Shown here one piece after another: positions 25,592 through 34,535 of a DNA stretch of 64,000 nucleotides (position 1 is its first letter; each line of letters starts with the position of its first letter). The position numbers were made by a program, and so were the translations under genes. A model generated the notes under the pieces. The model saw only the letters and a program-made list of their open reading frames with translations, did no database searches and was not told where the DNA came from. The stretch is from Acidimicrobiaceae bacterium. GTDB lineage: Bacteria; Actinomycetota; Acidimicrobiia; Acidimicrobiales; RAAP-2. Location of the stretch: the NCBI GenBank assembly GCA_003167415.1, contig PMTF01000013.1, forward strand, positions 38,692-102,691, given 5' to 3'.

Positions 25592-25648
25592 TGAAGTAAT
25601 CACAGAAACTGGCATCGTTGGGGTGCCACTGAGGGGTTGGGGAAAATA

Positions 25649-26881
25649 ATGAATTTTAGAAAAGGAAGGGCCCTTGCGGCCGTTGCCTTGGCGGGGACAT
25701 TCATCGCCTTGGCAGTTCCGTCAGTGAGTTCGGCGTCTGGCACAGTATCCGCCACGACGTTTAATGCGAACTACACGACCATGGCGGACTTGACGGCCAT
25801 TACGGCTGCGGGCACCGGTGGTATCGGCGTCATTTTGCCGGACGAAGTCTCGTCAAACCGCTACGTCGACTTTGACGCACCGAACTTGTCGACGGCTCTC
25901 TCCGACGCAGGTCTTCTGCCAACTGACTTGAACGTGCAAAACGCCCTCGGCGTGGACGCCACGGAGATCAGCATCGCGCAAGGCGACATTGCCTCAGGCG
26001 ACAAAGTCCTCATCATGGACCCGCTTGACGCAACTACCGGCATCACGATTGAGTCAGACGCGGCTAAGGCCGGCGTTGGAGTCGTTGACTATGACCGTCT
26101 GACGGTTGGTGGATCTGGCAAGTACTACGTGAGCTTCAACAATGTCGCGGTGGGCACGCTCATCGGACAAGGTGAGCTCGCGTGCATCACGGCGTACAAG
26201 ATCAAGAAGCCACTGGTGTACGTGATGAACGGCAGCACCTCGACGGACAACAACGCCGTGCTGTTTGCCAAGGGTTATGACGCGGTACTGAACGGTAAGG
26301 GCTACAAGGCCTCGGTCGGCGGTACCGGCAACTCGAAGACGATCAACGAGACGGGTACCGGAACATGGACGCCCGCAACCGCGTTGACGGACTTCCAGGG
26401 TGCGTACTCGAAGAACCCGAAGATCGATGCAGTGGTGACGCCGAACGACGAGAACGCCGCGCCGATCATTTCCTACTTGCAGAAGAAGGGTCTGAAGCCG
26501 GACAAGATTCCGTTCACCGGACAGGACGCCACGTTGACCGGTTTCCAGAACATCATCTCTGGATACCAGTGCGGCACCGTGTACAAGCCCATTTGGCAAG
26601 AGGCTCAGGCCGCTGCTGCATTGGCCATCTACATGCGCGCCGGCAAGACGCCGCCTAAGGCTCTTGTTAACGGCACCACCTCTGACCCAACGACGAAGCG
26701 CGCTGTTCCCTCGGTCCTCTTGAAGGCCTCGTGGGTGACGGCGACGAAGATTCAGTCAACGGTCATCGCCAACGGTGTTATCAACGCGGTTGCTTTGTGC
26801 ACCAATGTAAAGCCAAAGGTTTCGGGTGACTCCAAGTTGCCCACGTACAAGGCCGACTGCAAGAAAGACAAGATTTCCTAA
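25649..26881 (+). CDS. CUT2-type sugar ABC transporter substrate-binding protein
   Basis: The 410-residue exported protein has a signal peptide: basic NFRKGR, a hydrophobic core, then VSSASG at about residue 30, with no lipobox cysteine. It is a periplasmic-binding-protein-like type I fold of the xylose/ribose group (Peripla_BP_4 type). Segments such as DKVLIMDPLDA, NAAPIISYLQKKG and KIPFTGQDATLTGFQNI fit XylF-like proteins. I replaced the TTG of the track with ATG 25649, which has GGGG upstream. Codons are more T-ended than in neighbouring genes, as in highly expressed or transferred genes. Substrate is inferred to be a pentose or hexose, not proven. Confidence 0.88.
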   Translation: MNFRKGRALAAVALAGTFIALAVPSVSSASGTVSATTFNANYTTMADLTAITAAGTGGIGVILPDEVSSNRYVDFDAPNLSTALSDAGLLPTDLNVQNALGVDATEISIAQGDIASGDKVLIMDPLDATTGITIESDAAKAGVGVVDYDRLTVGGSGKYYVSFNNVAVGTLIGQGELACITAYKIKKPLVYVMNGSTSTDNNAVLFAKGYDAVLNGKGYKASVGGTGNSKTINETGTGTWTPATALTDFQGAYSKNPKIDAVVTPNDENAAPIISYLQKKGLKPDKIPFTGQDATLTGFQNIISGYQCGTVYKPIWQEAQAAAALAIYMRAGKTPPKALVNGTTSDPTTKRAVPSVLLKASWVTATKIQSTVIANGVINAVALCTNVKPKVSGDSKLPTYKADCKKDKIS

Positions 26882-26907
26882 GCAAGTAAGTAAGTAAAAA
26901 GGTCATT

Positions 26908-26970
26908 CCATGTCCGAGTCCGCTACAGGAGAGCCCGTTAACGCGGGAGCCGTAGCGGACTCGGACATGG
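26908..26970 (+). repeat. Perfect 19-bp inverted repeat enclosing the ABC ATPase start codon
   Basis: CCATGTCCGAGTCCGCTAC (26908-26926) is followed after 25 bases by its exact reverse complement (26952-26970). The centre itself contains CCCG-N6-CGGG. The ATPase start ATG (26910-26912) is inside the left arm, while its AAGG ribosome-binding site (26899-26902) is just outside. In RNA this forms a very stable stem. It may lower ATPase/permease translation relative to the binding protein, or stabilise upstream mRNA; both are inferences. Confidence 0.9.
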
Positions 26971-27722
26971 GCGTTGACCCGTCAATGCTGTTGAGCCTGC
27001 GCGGCGTGACGAAGCATTTCGGAGCCGTCCAGGCTCTTCGACAAGTCGATCTCGACGTTCCCGCGGGCCAAGTCACCGCGTTAGTCGGTGACAACGGCGC
27101 GGGTAAGTCCACGCTCATCAAAGCGGTTGCGGGCATCTGGGAGCCGTCCAGTGGGACCATGTACTGGCAAGGTAAGAAGATTGACATTCACACTCCGAAA
27201 GAAGCGGCCTTACTCGGTATTGCCACGGTGTATCAAGACCTCGCACTGTGTGACAATCTCGACATCGTTGCCAACATGTACTTGGGCTTCGAGTCCACCA
27301 AGAAGCACGTACTCGATGAGATCACGATGGAAAAGCGTACGCAACAGACGCTGAAAGATCTTTCCGTCACCACGGTGCACTCGGTACGCCAGCTGGTGGC
27401 GTCACTATCGGGCGGACAGCGTCAATCCGTCGCCGTCGCGCGTGCGGTTATGCGCGACGCGAAGCTGGTCATCATGGACGAACCCACCGCGGCGCTGGGA
27501 GTCTCTCAGACGGCCCAAGTCTTGGCTCTCATCAAGACCCTGGCGTCAAGGGGCATCGGTGTCCTCGTAATTTCGCACAACCTCAATGACGTCTTCGAGG
27601 TGGCCGACCGCGTGGCCGTCATGTATCTCGGCACTTTGGTGAGTAGCGGGCCCGTCGCCAACTACACGATGTCGAGCACCGTCGAACTCATCACCACCGG
27701 CGTGGTCTCGCGCGCCGCGTAA
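26910..27722 (+). CDS. CUT2-type sugar ABC transporter ATP-binding protein, single ABC domain
   Basis: The 270-residue cytosolic ATPase has Walker A GDNGAGKST, Q-loop VYQDLAL, signature LSGGQRQSVAVARAV, Walker B LVIMDEPTAALG and the H-loop SHNLNDVFEV. It has only one nucleotide-binding domain, unlike the tandem 500-residue RbsA/XylG/MglA proteins, and resembles the short FrcA type; two copies would assemble per transporter. The first 20 residues are encoded by an inverted repeat that encloses the start codon. ATG 26967, where homology begins soon after, is a possible alternative start. It lies between the binding-protein and permease genes. Confidence 0.9.
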   Translation: MSESATGEPVNAGAVADSDMGVDPSMLLSLRGVTKHFGAVQALRQVDLDVPAGQVTALVGDNGAGKSTLIKAVAGIWEPSSGTMYWQGKKIDIHTPKEAALLGIATVYQDLALCDNLDIVANMYLGFESTKKHVLDEITMEKRTQQTLKDLSVTTVHSVRQLVASLSGGQRQSVAVARAVMRDAKLVIMDEPTAALGVSQTAQVLALIKTLASRGIGVLVISHNLNDVFEVADRVAVMYLGTLVSSGPVANYTMSSTVELITTGVVSRAA

Positions 27723-27763: not shown

Positions 27764-29011
27764 TTGGCTACTACCTCTGAACCCCTACCAGAAACTCCCG
27801 TTTTAGAGCTGACGAAGACGACTCTGACCGCTCGCCTGACCGGTCTTATCGGATCCGACGTGGGTATCGTTCCGGTTCTCATTGCGCTCGTGGTGCTCAT
27901 CATCTATTTCGAAGTTCGCAGTTCTGTATTTCTCAAGCCGGACAACATCACCAACCTTTTCGTTCAGGCGATCATCTTCATATTCCTAGGTATGGCCGAG
28001 GTCTGGCTACTCCTCCTCGGCGAAATCGACCTTTCCCTCGGTTGGATGGCCGGCCTGAGCGGGTCCATTGCGGCGATCTACACCAATATCCAGTTCGGCT
28101 GGCCCTGGTGGCTGGCCTTCCTCGCGGCCTTGGTCGTGTGCACGGCCATCGGCGGCCTGTGGGGCCTTATCGTCGTGAAACTGAACTTGCCGTCGTTCAT
28201 CGTCACCCTGGCCGGAAGTTTCATCCTCGAAGGCGTCCTCCTCTATATCCTCGACCGCGTCTTTGAAGGAGGCGGTGCACCGATTCAGAGCAGTGAGTTG
28301 ACCAACCTCACCGTTGGAAACCTGACACCGACGTGGACCTGGATCTTTGTCATCGCAGTAATAGCCGTATCGGCCGCAGTCATGATCTTTCGTGAACGAT
28401 CGCGCCGCGCCGCGGGCCTCGAGGTTCCCCCGTTCTATCGAATCGTGGTCAAACTCGTCGCGCTGACCGCGGTGAGCGTGGCCCTCGCGTGGCTCTTTAA
28501 CACGAATCGCGGGGCGTTCATAAAAATCGAGGGCATGCCCTTCGCGGTGCCGATGGTGTTCGGGGTGCTCGGGATCTACTCCTTCATCTTGGCGCGCACG
28601 AAGTTCGGTCGCTATATGTACGCCATCGGAGGCAACAGAGAAGCGGCCCGTCGCGCCGGCATTCCGGTGAATCGTTACCGCGTCTACGCCTTCATGCTCG
28701 GTGGCTTCACCGCCGGCATCGCCGGGCTGTTCTACGTGTCGCGCCTCGGTGGCTACTCGTCCAGTTCGACGGATCCCTCGCTCGTGCTCTACGCCGTCGC
28801 CGCCGCCGTGATCGGTGGCACGAGTCTCTACGGCGGCCGAGGCAAGATGACCTACCCGGTCGTGGGCGGCATCATTTTGGCCGTGATCAACAACGGGCTG
28901 GTGCTCATCCAGATCACTTCGACTATGGTCTACGTCATTACGGGCGTCGTCCTCTTGGGCGCGATTACGGTTGACTCGTTGGCTCGCAAGAGCCAGACGT
29001 TGCTCAAATAG
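27764..29011 (+). CDS. CUT2-type sugar ABC transporter permease (XylH-like)
   Basis: The 415-residue polytopic membrane protein belongs to the BPD_transp_2 family used by ribose, xylose and related sugars. About ten to twelve hydrophobic segments are visible. The motif AIGGNREAARRAGIPVNRYR, which contacts the ATPase in this family, is near residue 285, followed by AGIAGLFYVSRL and GGTSLYGGRGK. An insertion of about 60 residues after the fifth segment, present in XylH-like permeases, is seen here too. The start is a TTG with AAAGAG six bases upstream. The gene lies 41 bases after the ATPase gene and completes the transporter operon. Confidence 0.9.
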   Translation: MATTSEPLPETPVLELTKTTLTARLTGLIGSDVGIVPVLIALVVLIIYFEVRSSVFLKPDNITNLFVQAIIFIFLGMAEVWLLLLGEIDLSLGWMAGLSGSIAAIYTNIQFGWPWWLAFLAALVVCTAIGGLWGLIVVKLNLPSFIVTLAGSFILEGVLLYILDRVFEGGGAPIQSSELTNLTVGNLTPTWTWIFVIAVIAVSAAVMIFRERSRRAAGLEVPPFYRIVVKLVALTAVSVALAWLFNTNRGAFIKIEGMPFAVPMVFGVLGIYSFILARTKFGRYMYAIGGNREAARRAGIPVNRYRVYAFMLGGFTAGIAGLFYVSRLGGYSSSSTDPSLVLYAVAAAVIGGTSLYGGRGKMTYPVVGGIILAVINNGLVLIQITSTMVYVITGVVLLGAITVDSLARKSQTLLK

Positions 29012-29037: not shown

Positions 29038-30147
29038 CTAGAAGAGATTCGCCAAGTCGTCGCGGCGAATCTTGCCATTGATGGTGCGCGGAATCGCCGC
29101 GACGAATCGGATTTCCTTGGGCTTGGCCCAGGGGCCGATTCGTTCTTCCGCGACCGAACGCACGGTGTCTTCGCTTACGGATCCGTCACTCACGATCAGC
29201 GCCACGACCCGTTGGCCCCATTCGCTGTCCTCGAGCCCGGTGACCGCGACGTCACGCACGCCGTCGATCGTGGCGAGCACGAACTCAAGCTCTTCGGGCC
29301 AGAGCTTCTCACCGCCGGTGTTGACCACGAATCCGAGGCGACCCTTCACCGAGACCCGCTGACCGTGGACTTCGCCGGCGTCACCCGTCGGAAACCAATC
29401 GTCGCGACCATCCGGTCCGGTCACGTGTGGCCTCGGACTGTCTCGGTACGAGCGAAAGAGGGTGGGGCTTCGAACGCAGATTTCCCCGTCCACGATCGCG
29501 ACATCAACGCCGGGTAGCGCCAAGCCGTCATAGACGACGCCCGATCCGGTCTCGGTCATGCCCCAGGTCGTGATCACGTTCACGGGAAGGGCTGTCGGCG
29601 GCCGCGCGCCGCCCAACAACACTGCGTGATAGCCGCTCAAGTCGTGACGAGCCAGTTGCGTTCGAACCACCGAGACGTGTGTGGCACCGTGGTTGGCCGC
29701 GGCTGCGAGGTCTTCGCCATCCCCCCAGTGCAATGTGGCGTCACTGAGTACCGCCCTCAAAATGACGGCGAGACCGCCAATGTGACAGGCCGGAAGACAG
29801 GGCGCCCAGACCGGTGGTGTCTCGCCGCGAAGCGTCGACTGCGTGATCTTGGCGCTCGCGCGAAGGGCCGACCAGGAAAGTTCGACGGCTTTAGGCTCGC
29901 CACTCGAACCCGAGGTCAACATCACCAGGCCAATCTCGTCATCGACCGGAGTGCCGTTCGCCAATTCGGTACGTCCGTCGACGTCGCGCACCGCGGTGGC
30001 GCCTAGTCGTTCGAGTTCTTCCAGACGTCGACGCGGCGACGTTCGCCGATCCAAAACGCAAAAGGCGAGCGAAGCGTCAACTGCTTCGCGAATCGCGCGT
30101 TCGAGGTCCGGACCGAGCTCGTAATCGAGCGCGAGCAGGGAAGTCAC
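29038..30147 (-). CDS. menE: O-succinylbenzoate-CoA ligase MenE (short actinobacterial form)
   Basis: MenE activates o-succinylbenzoate to its CoA ester in menaquinone synthesis. The 369-residue protein lacks most of the N-terminal domain of larger acyl-CoA synthetases, as do other actinobacterial MenE proteins. It has the AMP-binding P-loop LTSGSSGEPK, the motif TTWGMTETG, WFPTGDAGE, VKGRLGF and the C-terminal lysine motif RTINGKIRR. The GTG start carries TATTCT six bases upstream and no ribosome-binding site, so the transcript is probably leaderless. It is divergent from menB across 222 bases. Confidence 0.92.
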   Translation of the reverse strand: MTSLLALDYELGPDLERAIREAVDASLAFCVLDRRTSPRRRLEELERLGATAVRDVDGRTELANGTPVDDEIGLVMLTSGSSGEPKAVELSWSALRASAKITQSTLRGETPPVWAPCLPACHIGGLAVILRAVLSDATLHWGDGEDLAAAANHGATHVSVVRTQLARHDLSGYHAVLLGGARPPTALPVNVITTWGMTETGSGVVYDGLALPGVDVAIVDGEICVRSPTLFRSYRDSPRPHVTGPDGRDDWFPTGDAGEVHGQRVSVKGRLGFVVNTGGEKLWPEELEFVLATIDGVRDVAVTGLEDSEWGQRVVALIVSDGSVSEDTVRSVAEERIGPWAKPKEIRFVAAIPRTINGKIRRDDLANLF

Positions 30148-30153
30148 GAAACC

Positions 30154-30159
30154 AGAATA
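30154..30159 (-). promoter_or_regulatory. -10 box of leaderless menE transcript
   Basis: On the minus strand TATTCT ends six bases before the GTG start at 30147. Confidence 0.5.
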
Positions 30160-30369
30160 GATGTCGAGGACCTAGGTTGTCCTTACAAGCGTTGGCGCCC
30201 CGTGGCCTCGATACGTCACGAACGAAGGATTGTCGCCGAAGCGGACACGGTGTGGGGTGTCCGAGAGCCTCATTGGGCGAACGACTTGTGGCCCACGAGA
30301 CTCGACCGTGAAAACGCGGCGCCCGACGTGTTGATGACCCCCGTTTAATTGGAAAGTAGTTTGGACGCC

Positions 30370-31263
30370 ATGGCCGAAACCGTTATCCAAGGTTCACCGA
30401 TCGACCCCGTGGAGGAGTTCCGTTCCTGGCCGCCGCCCGAGTGGCGGCGCTCCGGAGAGTTCGACGACATCATCTACGAATCCTCCGAAGGGATGGCCCG
30501 CGTTACCATCAACCGCCCCCAGGTCCGCAACGCCTTTCGTCCCCAGACGCTCTTCGAGCTGTCGCGCGCCTTCGAAATGGCTCGCGACGACGTCACCGTC
30601 GGCGCCATCATCCTGACCGGGTCCGGTCCCGACGCGTTCTGCTCCGGGGGCGATCAGAGTATTCGTGGTGACGACGGCTACATGGGGGACGATGACGTTG
30701 CTCGTCAAGGTGTCGGTCGCCTCAACGTCCTCGACCTGCAGATTCAGATCCGTCGACTGCCGAAGCCGGTGATCGCTCAGATTGCCGGTTACGCCATCGG
30801 CGGAGGGCATATCTTGCACTTGGTCTGCGACCTCTCGATCGCGGCCGAGAACGCGCGTTTCGGCCAGACCGGACCGAAGGTGGGTTCCTTCGACGGGGGG
30901 TACGGGTCATCGCTGTTGGCGCGCACCGTCGGCGTGAAGCGCGCTAAGGAAATTTGGTTCCTCTGTCGTCAGTACGACGCCAAACAGGCGCTCGAGTGGG
31001 GACTCGTCAATACTGTCGTGGCGCTCGATCAACTCGAGGGCGAGACCGTCGCGTGGTGCCGCCAGATCCTGACGCTGTCGCCGATCGCGCTGCGGATGCT
31101 CAAGGCCGGGTTCAACGCGGCCGAGGACGGCATGGCCGGCATCCAGCAGTTGGCCGGGGACGCCACCATGCTGTTCTACATGTCCGAAGAGGGTCAAGAG
31201 GGTCGCAACGCTTTCGTCGAACACCGCAAGCCGGACTTTTCGAAGTTTCCTAAGCGTCCATGA
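30370..31263 (+). CDS. menB: 1,4-dihydroxy-2-naphthoyl-CoA synthase MenB
   Basis: MenB, a crotonase-fold enzyme, closes the second aromatic ring of o-succinylbenzoyl-CoA. The 297-residue protein has [25 protein letters not shown], and [12 protein letters not shown] with the Asp/Tyr region typical of MenB rather than other crotonases, plus [10 protein letters not shown]. It starts at ATG 30370; the track's TTG 30349 is rejected because it lengthens the protein without homology. TAGTTT ends seven bases before this ATG, so the transcript may be leaderless. The stop overlaps menA by ATGA. Confidence 0.95.
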
Positions 31264-32135
31264 CCGAGGCTCCCGGGCCCCTCCGGCGATGGGTGCTCGC
31301 GGCCCGTGGGCGCACGTTGCCCGCCGCCATGGTGCCGGTCATCGTGGGCGTGTCGCTCATTCGACCGCGCACGATCAACTGGGGCAACTCGGCCCTGTGC
31401 CTCGTCGTGGCGCTCGCCCTGCAAGTCGGCACGAATTACGCCAACGACTACTCCGACGGCATCCGCGGCACCGACGAAGTGCGGGTCGGTCCCTTTCGAC
31501 TGACCGCGTCGAAACTGGTGCCGGCGCGCACGGTTCGAAACGCCGCCTTCGCGTCGTTCTTCCTCGCCGGCGTCGCGGGACTACTGCTCGCGTCTCGGAC
31601 CTCATGGTGGCTGGTGGGGATCGGCGCCACGGCGATCGCGGCCGGGTGGTTCTACACGGGGGGACCGCGACCGTACGGCTACTACGGGTTCGGGGAGCTC
31701 TTCGTCTTCATCTATTTCGGCCTGGTCGCCACCGTCGGCACCGCCTACGTGCAACACCTGAGCATTCCCGATCGATCGTGGTGGCTCGGCGTGGCGACGG
31801 GCTTCATGGCCTGCGCGCTGCTCGAGGCGAACAACCTACGTGACGTGGAAGGCGACCGGTCGTCGGGCAAGAGGACCTTGGCCGCGCGACTGACGCGAGG
31901 ACGAGCGCCGTGGCTCTTCACGGTGTGCGTCGGCGGCGTGCTGGTCGGCATGGCCGGCGCCGGTCACAGTGTGATCGGTATCGTCGCCGTCCTTCTCTAC
32001 GTCCCGGCCGTGCGTTTGGCGTTCTCGAAGAAGAACGGTCGTGAGCTTCTGCCGATGTTGCGGTATTCGGCGCGCGCGCAACTCCAACTCGGCGCGTTGC
32101 TCGCCGTGGTGCTCGTGTTCAGAGTTGGCGTGTGA
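31260..32135 (+). CDS. menA: 1,4-dihydroxy-2-naphthoate polyprenyltransferase MenA
   Basis: MenA is a UbiA-family integral membrane prenyltransferase that attaches the polyprenyl tail to dihydroxynaphthoate, giving demethylmenaquinone. The 291-residue protein has about eight to nine hydrophobic segments and both aspartate-rich motifs: [12 protein letters not shown] (about 62-73) and NNLRDVEGD (about 193-201). Coupling to menB (ATGA) and the first motif separate it from other UbiA relatives. Its end overlaps the 3' end of the convergent menH by 17 bases. Confidence 0.94.
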
Positions 32136-32871
32136 AGCGCTGAACGAGTTCGGCGCTTCGCTCCGGTTGCTCCAGATGCGCGGCGTGATGCGCGTCGGCG
32201 ACGATCTCCGCGCGCCCGTCGACCACGTTCTCGGCAATAGCCGTTGCTTCGAGACGGAACTTTTGATCGAGGGCGCCGGCCAACGCCAGCGTGGGCATTG
32301 AGAGTGACGCCAACTCCGTGGCGAGCCAGCGCTGCGTGCCGGTCCCGGCCAGTCGAAGCGAGCCGGCGAGGCCTGCGGCGTGAGAACTTCGTGCGGCGCG
32401 CTCCAGCGGGTCATTGGGCAGCGACGCAAACATCGCGCGGGCGAGCCATTCGTCGAGGAAGGCGTCGGCGCCGATCGATTCGATGCGTTGGGCGAGCGCG
32501 TCGTCACTTCGACGTCGTTCGTCACGCTCGAGCGGGTCCATGATGCCTCGCGTCGCGCCCAGCAGCACCAAACGATTGACGCGCGCGGGGTAGTGAAGTG
32601 CGAAGTGCAGGGCGACACGTGCCCCGAAGGAGTAGCCGCCCAGCGCGAAGGGTTCGCCGGGAAGTACCTCGGCGAGCAAATCGGCCGTCTCGTCCAGCGA
32701 CGCCAGAATTGTCGCGTTCTCGCCGTGTCCGGGCAGGTCGAGAGTCAGAAGCTCGTTCGTTCCTGTCAGAATGGATCGAAACCGATGTGCCGAGTCCTTG
32801 GTCTGCGTGAATCCGTGGAACCACACGAGGAGTGGGCCCGAGCCGCGACGTTGGACACCGAGGAGTGACAT
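32119..32871 (-). CDS. menH: Alpha/beta-hydrolase, probable SHCHC synthase MenH
   Basis: The 250-residue alpha/beta-hydrolase most likely eliminates pyruvate from SEPHCHC in menaquinone synthesis. It has FHGFTQTKD near the oxyanion region, DLPGHG, the nucleophile elbow GGYSFGARVAL (Ser in GxSxG), and a C-terminal catalytic His in DAHHAAHLEQP. The track start lies 71 residues upstream inside menD on the other strand. I chose ATG 32871, where homology begins; a GTG two codons upstream is possible. The function is assigned from motifs together with its position between menA and menD. Confidence 0.87.
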   Translation of the reverse strand: MSLLGVQRRGSGPLLVWFHGFTQTKDSAHRFRSILTGTNELLTLDLPGHGENATILASLDETADLLAEVLPGEPFALGGYSFGARVALHFALHYPARVNRLVLLGATRGIMDPLERDERRRSDDALAQRIESIGADAFLDEWLARAMFASLPNDPLERAARSSHAAGLAGSLRLAGTGTQRWLATELASLSMPTLALAGALDQKFRLEATAIAENVVDGRAEIVADAHHAAHLEQPERSAELVQRFTRQL

Positions 32872-34535
32872 TGCCACAGAGCGTACCGAGCCCGAGTCAG
32901 GTGCAGGCCACGTACGCGGCGACCTTGTTTGACGAATGGATCCGGTTGGGACTTCGCGACGTCGTGCTCTGTCCCGGCTCACGATCAACGCCGCTCGCCC
33001 TTGCGTGCGCGTCACGTGGTGAACTGCGCGTACACGTTCGCATTGACGAGCGAAGCGCCGGGTTCTTCGCCCTTGGTCGCGCACTCGCCACCCGCGAGCC
33101 GGTGGCGATTGTGGTGACCAGTGGAACGGCGGCAGCAGAACTCCACGCGTGCGTTGCCGAGGCCTCGCAAGCGTTCGTGCCGCTGCTCGTGCTCACCGCC
33201 GATCGTCCGCCCGAACTCCACGGCGTCGGTGCGCCCCAGACGATCGACCAGCACCGACTCTTCGGCGACATGGTGCGTCTCTTCGAAGATCCCGGTACCG
33301 CGCAACTCGAGGACGCGGCCTCGTGGCGCGAGCTGGCCGCACGGCTGTGGAGCGCGGCGACCCAACGTGACGAGGAGAGTTCGAGTCCCGGTCCGGTCCA
33401 CTTGAACGCCGCGTTCATTGAACCGCTGGTCGCTGACGCGCTGGCGCTTCCCAAACCCTCGACGCCGACGTCGACCTCGCGCCGGCGACCCGTTAACCGT
33501 GCCGGACTCGAAGACCTTCGCGTGTTGGGCGTCGCCGGTCACGGCGTCTCGAGCCAGACGGTCGAGGACTGCCTGTCACTGAACTGGGCCGTCGTCGGCG
33601 ACGCGACGGCGCTGGGCACCATTGCGTACTTCGACGCACTGTTGCGAGACGCGCGATTCGCTGAGGATGTCATCCCCGACGTGGTGGTCCGTTTCGGCGG
33701 ACTGCCCGCCTCTCGAACGCTGCAAGAGCGCCTTCGCGCGTGGCAGGTGCGAACCATCGGATTCGACGGAGCCGGCTTCGTGTCCGATCCCGATCGAATC
33801 GTTACCGAGAGCCTGCGCGGCGTGCCCGATCCGCAGCACGAGCCGAAGGCCGACGGCGAGTATGTGCGGCTCTGGAACGAGGCGTCGACGCACGTCAGTG
33901 ATTGGTTGACGAAACTCGACCGCGAAGACGACGCCCTGCAGGAGCTGTCGGTCGCTCGTTGCGTGGTCGAGGTGAGTTCACGACGTGACATTCCTCTCGT
34001 CATCGGATCGTCCATGCCGATACGCGACGTGGAATGGTGGACACCGGCGCGCACGTCACCTACCTACGCCAATCGCGGGGTGAACGGCATCGACGGCGTC
34101 GTGTCCACCGCGCTCGGAGTGGCGGCCGGATCACGGTCCATCGGATTCGTGGGCGACATCACGATGCTGCACGACGTGTCAGCGCTGGTGGACGGATTGG
34201 GCGAGGCGGGCGGGACGTGCGCGTTGGTCGTAGCGGACAATCACGGGGGAGGAATATTCTCCTTCCTCGCCCAGCGCGCGGCCGTCGACGACGCCCGTTT
34301 CGAACAGCTCTTCGCCACCCCTCGGGCGCACGACCTCGTCGCGATCGCCCGAGCCTTCGGTCATGAAGGTCTGCGCGTGACGACCCGTTCGCAACTGCGA
34401 AGTGCCCTCGAGGCGGCCCTGGACCGGCGTGGACTGACGGTGATCGTGGCCGACGTGCCGTCGCGCGACCAGAACGTACGACTGCACGACGAGTGGAACG
34501 AGAGAGTGAAGAGCATCCTCGAAGGCCTTCGATGA
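32871..34535 (+). CDS. menD: SEPHCHC synthase MenD
   Basis: MenD is the thiamine-diphosphate enzyme that joins isochorismate and 2-oxoglutarate, the first committed step of menaquinone synthesis. The 554-residue protein has VVLCPGSRSTPLAL and the glutamate motif RIDERSAGFFALG, VVTSGTAAAELHACV, TADRPPELHG, and the ThDP/Mg motif GDITMLHD followed by NHGGGIF. The start is set by GAGGAG (32860-32865), five bases before TTG 32871; GTG 32865 is the alternative. The first base is shared with the first base of the divergent menH start codon. It overlaps ccdA by ATGA. Confidence 0.94.
   Translation: MPQSVPSPSQVQATYAATLFDEWIRLGLRDVVLCPGSRSTPLALACASRGELRVHVRIDERSAGFFALGRALATREPVAIVVTSGTAAAELHACVAEASQAFVPLLVLTADRPPELHGVGAPQTIDQHRLFGDMVRLFEDPGTAQLEDAASWRELAARLWSAATQRDEESSSPGPVHLNAAFIEPLVADALALPKPSTPTSTSRRRPVNRAGLEDLRVLGVAGHGVSSQTVEDCLSLNWAVVGDATALGTIAYFDALLRDARFAEDVIPDVVVRFGGLPASRTLQERLRAWQVRTIGFDGAGFVSDPDRIVTESLRGVPDPQHEPKADGEYVRLWNEASTHVSDWLTKLDREDDALQELSVARCVVEVSSRRDIPLVIGSSMPIRDVEWWTPARTSPTYANRGVNGIDGVVSTALGVAAGSRSIGFVGDITMLHDVSALVDGLGEAGGTCALVVADNHGGGIFSFLAQRAAVDDARFEQLFATPRAHDLVAIARAFGHEGLRVTTRSQLRSALEAALDRRGLTVIVADVPSRDQNVRLHDEWNERVKSILEGLR

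Follow-up and report, generated by a model that had tools for sequence, protein, structure and literature searches.

How one operon can supply an ABC importer with many copies of the binding protein for each pump is, to our knowledge, understood in a few model bacteria only. A sugar ABC operon in the 64-kb stretch of DNA analysed here (the window) raises this question at a precise spot, as the start codon of its ATPase gene, downstream of the gene for the sugar-binding protein (SBP), lies inside a perfect inverted repeat. Does this repeat act as DNA or as RNA, and on which step of the operon's expression?

The inverted repeat at the operon junction

The repeat is established at the boundary between binding protein and translocator, as an earlier note on this DNA had stated, with the SBP gene upstream and the ATPase and permease genes downstream (Table 1). 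The note's two 19-bp arms (CCATGTCCGAGTCCGCTAC on the left and GTAGCGGACTCGGACATGG on the right) proved to be exact reverse complements at the positions it gave (100% complementarity, 25-nt spacer). With spacers of up to 60 allowed, no other perfect inverted repeat in the 64 kb exceeds 12 bp, the length of the runner-up, and by our own estimate a 19-bp perfect repeat with such spacing has a chance of about 2e-5 of occurring in 64 kb. Folding of 26870-27010 as RNA, which the note had proposed, gave one long hairpin (-66.9 kcal/mol, z = -7.0) and none of 200 shuffles was equally stable; the note's view that the repeat did not arise by chance is borne out. The junction is also the most stable 80-nt fold of the whole window (rank 1 of the 7990 windows of that size). 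Specifically, the predicted structure pairs 26901-26905 with 26975-26979 (GGTCA/TGACC) and 26907-26926 with 26952-26971 (a main stem of 20 pairs), while the smaller inner CCCG/CGGG hairpin of the note reappears as CCCGT/GCGGG (26934-26938 with 26943-26947). All three bases of the ATPase ATG are paired, their partner being CAT at 26966-26968.

Table 1. Features of the sugar ABC operon and its junction hairpin, in window positions.
Feature	Position	Strand	Basis
Sugar-binding protein (SBP) gene, ChvE/XylF-like, stop TAA 26879-26881	25637-26881	+	Pfam Peripla_BP_4 PF13407, E 1.4e-34; match to NCBIfam ChvE/XylF that does not reach the cut-off
Whole predicted hairpin: outer pairs, 20-pair main stem and apical hairpin	26901-26979	+	RNA fold, window rank
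Left arm of the 19-bp repeat, holds the ATPase start codon	26908-26926	+	
Single-domain sugar ABC ATPase	26910-27722	+	ABC_tran PF00005, E 6.9e-31; xylose ABC ATPase as best NCBIfam match, which does not reach the cut-off
Lineage-specific ATPase N-terminal extension hosting the hairpin	26910-26987	+	26 codons; outgroup ATPases without the extension
ATPase start codon ATG, paired	26910-26912	+	
Apical hairpin CCCGT-TAAC-GCGGG	26934-26947	+	RNA fold
Right arm of the 19-bp repeat, translated within the ATPase N-terminal extension	26952-26970	+	
Sugar ABC permease, BPD_transp_2, GguB-like	27764-29011	+	Profile matches

The ATPase start does lie in the left arm, and the statement that the repeat is translated as the first 20 residues of the protein holds approximately, with ATG 26967 as a possible in-frame alternative start in this species. 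The extension that results has 25-32 codons across the genus, and several outgroup ATPases begin just a few residues ahead of the core. In eight of the 61 relatives considered below it must be translated, since no other in-frame ATG, GTG or TTG occurs between the upstream start and the ATPase core. Pairwise identity of the extension is 40% (30% when shuffled) versus 76% for the core; on this measure the extension peptide itself is not the conserved feature.

Concerning the surroundings, a 12-bp perfect inverted repeat (29057-29068/29094-29105) is located just past the permease gene, within the 3' end of a convergent acyl-CoA-ligase-like ORF. The region 29038-34535 carries menaquinone-biosynthesis-like ORFs (MenE-, MenB- and MenA-like, a hydrolase and MenD-like, recognised by eye from their translations), among which opposite-strand ORFs overlap around 32119-33084.

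Conservation, covariation and position of the hairpin

An orthologue of the ATPase was detected at E < 1e-90 in 63 of 99 genomes of the genus, and 61 non-redundant junctions (uncultured Acidimicrobiales) were aligned. A hairpin lies over the start of the ATPase gene in these 61 junctions, with a main stem of 10-37 pairs (median 20) whose base is located 2-51 nt (median 14) past the SBP stop, and in 44 of them it outranks every other fold of the locus. Relatives lacking the dyad, by which the earlier note would have let its reading fall, were thus not encountered within the genus. The arms themselves differ by clade: CCATGTCCGAGTCCGCTAC in the window is replaced by CCGAGCCCGTGACG in L005, CCACCCCCGAG in L007 and GACACCGCCTTCCATTGCCAC in L153. 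RNAalifold predicted a stem of 13 pairs, 12 of which show double compensatory changes. In a 26-pair structure that we built ourselves, 243 cells of the alignment are changed on both sides, compared with 118 +/- 11 in shuffles (0 of 500 as high) and with 72-113 in controls where the partner strand was slid by 1-3 columns, and parsimony on a tree of the ATPase core counted 60 switches from one Watson-Crick pair to another in the stem. The compensatory arm changes that the note had suggested looking for in related genomes are consequently abundant. Judged by this covariation, the hairpin is real, conserved and functional.

Whether selection acts on the RNA was approached through strand asymmetry. 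On the tree, Watson-Crick pairs changed to G-U 40 times and to A-C 21 times (binomial p 0.01), and the reverse changes to Watson-Crick numbered 13 from G-U and 1 from A-C (binomial p 0.0009), as expected for an RNA of the coding strand. The two cruder counts, however, are symmetric, with internal G-U pairs over both strands at 86:86 and flanked mismatches at 21 G-U versus 19 A-C, and the total fold energy compared between the two strands was uninformative. As the asymmetry appears in the tree-based count only, selection at the RNA level is likely, short of proven.

In other genera of the family the junction bears a hairpin of different sequence, and in 13 of 15 cases no fold elsewhere in the locus is stronger. 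It may be wholly ahead of the start codon, in the intergenic space (L236, L240, L245, L248, L249), hold the start codon in its loop or apical part (L235, L237, L239), or lie wholly past it (L232, L234). This shifting position indicates that it is the end of the SBP gene which the hairpin follows and that capture of the start codon, which the earlier note had treated as the essential feature, is mostly a trait of the window's genus. More distant actinobacteria present strong junction hairpins in some cases (L027, L028, L055) and none in others. Beyond the genus, a covariance model had matches across the order with E values of 1e-6 to 0.05; these were sampled, and the 14 inspected are unrelated GC-rich sequence. 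The plasmid collection searched gave no match.

Function of the hairpin and comparison with known systems

We consider it fairly probable that the element is an RNA hairpin at the boundary between the SBP and the ATPase-permease parts of one operon mRNA, keeping the SBP in excess mainly through protection of its 3' end and secondarily through restrained initiation on the ATPase. Its computed support consists of the predicted hairpin, the conservation despite sequence change, the position, the missing U-tract and the recurrence at other SBP genes. By analogy with known systems, transcription would read through the whole operon and the hairpin would fold just past the SBP stop codon; the distal ATPase-permease RNA would then be cut and degraded 3'-5', and as exonucleases would get no further than the hairpin, a stable SBP message would remain. 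In this genus the base of the hairpin includes or adjoins the ATPase start, typically about 10 nt past the SBP stop (28 nt here), so that de novo initiation would also be restrained and ATPase translation would rely mostly on ribosomes finishing the SBP. In our ranking, protection of the 3' end of the SBP mRNA, one of the options in the earlier note, fits best, since it agrees with the absence of a U-tract as well as with the changing place of the hairpin around the start, while occlusion of the start codon in the window's genus is probably an additional effect. A counterpoint to protection is that a hairpin inside an ORF would be melted whenever the ATPase is translated.

The element is of a kind already known, the hairpin at the boundary between SBP and translocator, in a variant located within the ORF. 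The prototype is malE-malF of Escherichia coli, where malE is stabilised by a 3' hairpin (Dar and Sorek, 2018; PMC5927463). Among the 26 protective hairpins reported there for all operons, which lack a U-tract, 17 lie within the coding sequence of the downstream gene; in five ABC operons the stabilised gene is always the SBP, whose mRNA the hairpin shields from 3'-5' decay (PMC5927463). The junctions studied here share with this type a stable hairpin directly 3' of the SBP gene, an evolutionarily conserved structure (covariation against both shuffles and slid controls) and the lack of a uridine tract. They differ in position: the E. coli hairpins have a mean distance of 107 +/- 56 nt from the beginning of the downstream ORF, whereas the putatively protective stem studied here begins at the start codon or close to it and sits in the N-terminal extension of 25-32 codons. 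Hairpins at gene boundaries are also tied to subunit stoichiometry in the cip-cel operon of Ruminiclostridium cellulolyticum, whose stem-loop processing sites set it via processing and stability (PMC10311766); those hairpins are intergenic and belong to another gene family.

A different mode of action is documented in cellulolytic Clostridia, where stem-loops after the SBP genes of ABC importers are partial internal terminators (Wu et al., 2022; PMC9045158). Were the same to apply here, just part of the transcripts would reach the ATPase and permease genes. The likeness is considerable, as it covers the place directly after the SBP gene, the long GC-rich stem, the operon order and the presumed aim of SBP excess, and the clostridial cases include long GC-rich stems with little U. 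Here, however, the stem extends into the next ORF, and the genus has a long loop on top of the main stem (25 nt in the window), unlike the tight GC hairpins of terminators. The U-rich tract that follows the GC-rich stem of an intrinsic terminator was not seen at the 61 loci, where T after the stem amounts to 2.2 per 10 nt against a background of 2.0. No terminator-like site was called at the window junction. The absence of the U-tract makes termination less likely rather than excluding it, since the type IV elements of the clostridial study also have no obvious U-tract (PMC9045158), and we regard this account as unlikely. Somewhat more credit, though still on the doubtful side, goes to control of translation only, in which the hairpin would sequester the ATPase start and the ATPase would be made almost exclusively through translational coupling, with ribosomes re-initiating after termination on the SBP. 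Start codons within hairpins do couple translation to an upstream gene in synthetic elements of the same layout (synTCE; PMC11602170). The ATG is fully paired in 31 of the 61 loci and has at least two of its three bases paired in 47, the distance from SBP stop to ATPase start has its mode at 9-10 nt in the genus (28 nt in the window species), and an SD-like motif precedes the start at only eight of the 61, by our estimate no more than chance. Unlike in synTCE, occlusion is not constant across the family: 14 of the 61 loci have none or one of the start-codon bases paired, and in several sister genera the start codon is outside the hairpin, which lies wholly upstream or wholly downstream of it. 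This sliding lowers the standing of start-codon occlusion as the core function.

If the palindrome acted as DNA, with no RNA role, mutation bias (template switching from one arm to the other) would maintain its perfect match, or it would serve as a cruciform or protein site. The nearly complete Watson-Crick pairing of the stems and the equal G-U and A-C deviations in the two crude counts are in favour of this account, but the arms differ completely between clades, which argues against a sequence-specific protein site, the tree-based counts run the other way, and mutation bias fails to explain why hairpins turn up again at this junction in other genera and also after other SBP genes. The protein site proposed in the earlier note is accordingly not supported, and we hold any purely DNA-level account to be very unlikely. 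Finally, a riboswitch or protein-responsive attenuator sensing the sugar is suggested by the long internal loop and, in some members of the genus, by an apical CGTCC/GGAC hairpin; as the junction alignment has one invariant column of 114, loop sequence and length vary freely and Rfam gave no match for the hairpin, the ligand response that the note had envisaged finds no support and appears extremely improbable. An invertible segment, a transposon end, a riboswitch and a sequence-specific operator were dropped as candidates, the arm sequence not being conserved and the position being fixed within the operon.

Hairpins at other SBP genes

A covariance-model search of the organism's own genome retrieved the window copy as the only match above noise, which is to be expected when the fold, and not the sequence, defines an element. 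Compared by fold, four of the seven Peripla_BP_4 genes of this genome (the window's, L260, L261 and L264) are directly followed by a hairpin that is stronger than any other at their locus. In the L261-type operon the hairpin occupies the opening codons of the ATPase gene (encoding TPGDD-LVVAGVS) and recurs in most of the 18 same-genus loci sampled, among which one pair is compensated and several G-U changes occur; the arm sequences are much more conserved there, which makes this case weaker evidence.

Three traits are new with respect to the known hairpins: a very long, covarying stem encloses the start codon, an N-terminal extension is dedicated to it, and a second operon has a comparable in-ORF hairpin. 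A bolder variant of the boundary-hairpin reading for the genus is a two-state switch: the folded hairpin would shield the SBP message and block the ATPase start, while each ribosome initiating on the ATPase would melt it and expose the SBP message to decay, so that translocator synthesis and survival of the SBP mRNA would be mutually exclusive, and the extension would have grown to carry the RNA element. This reading takes in the comparable hairpin in the second sugar operon; we think it improbable. Apart from this, a presumed stoichiometry element can be traced through many species in which nearly all its letters have changed, it has moved with respect to the start codon and it has been absorbed into the next coding sequence, with the fold kept. 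These loci offer a natural series for testing what selection maintains, be it mRNA protection, termination or control of initiation, and the unusual N-terminal extensions found in these ATPases may be owed to the RNA and not to the protein.

Several of the individual hairpins can be described further. The second sugar ABC operon of the genus (L261 and L266-L283) carries GGACCCCCGGCGACGACCTGGTCGTCGCCGGGGTGTCC within the codons for the N-terminus of an AraG/MglA-like ATPase, directly after another SBP gene. At L260 and L264, perfect GC-rich hairpins (CTCACCCCACCGGAG-ATTCC-CTCCGGTGGGGTGAG and CCCACGGCCGACTC-GAGAA-GAGTCGGCCGTGGG) directly follow SBP genes, and at L282 (G007:C89) a very long perfect hairpin, GACAAAGACCCGGGAG-CTCT-CTCCCGGGTCTTTGTC, is established just upstream of an ABC ATPase gene.
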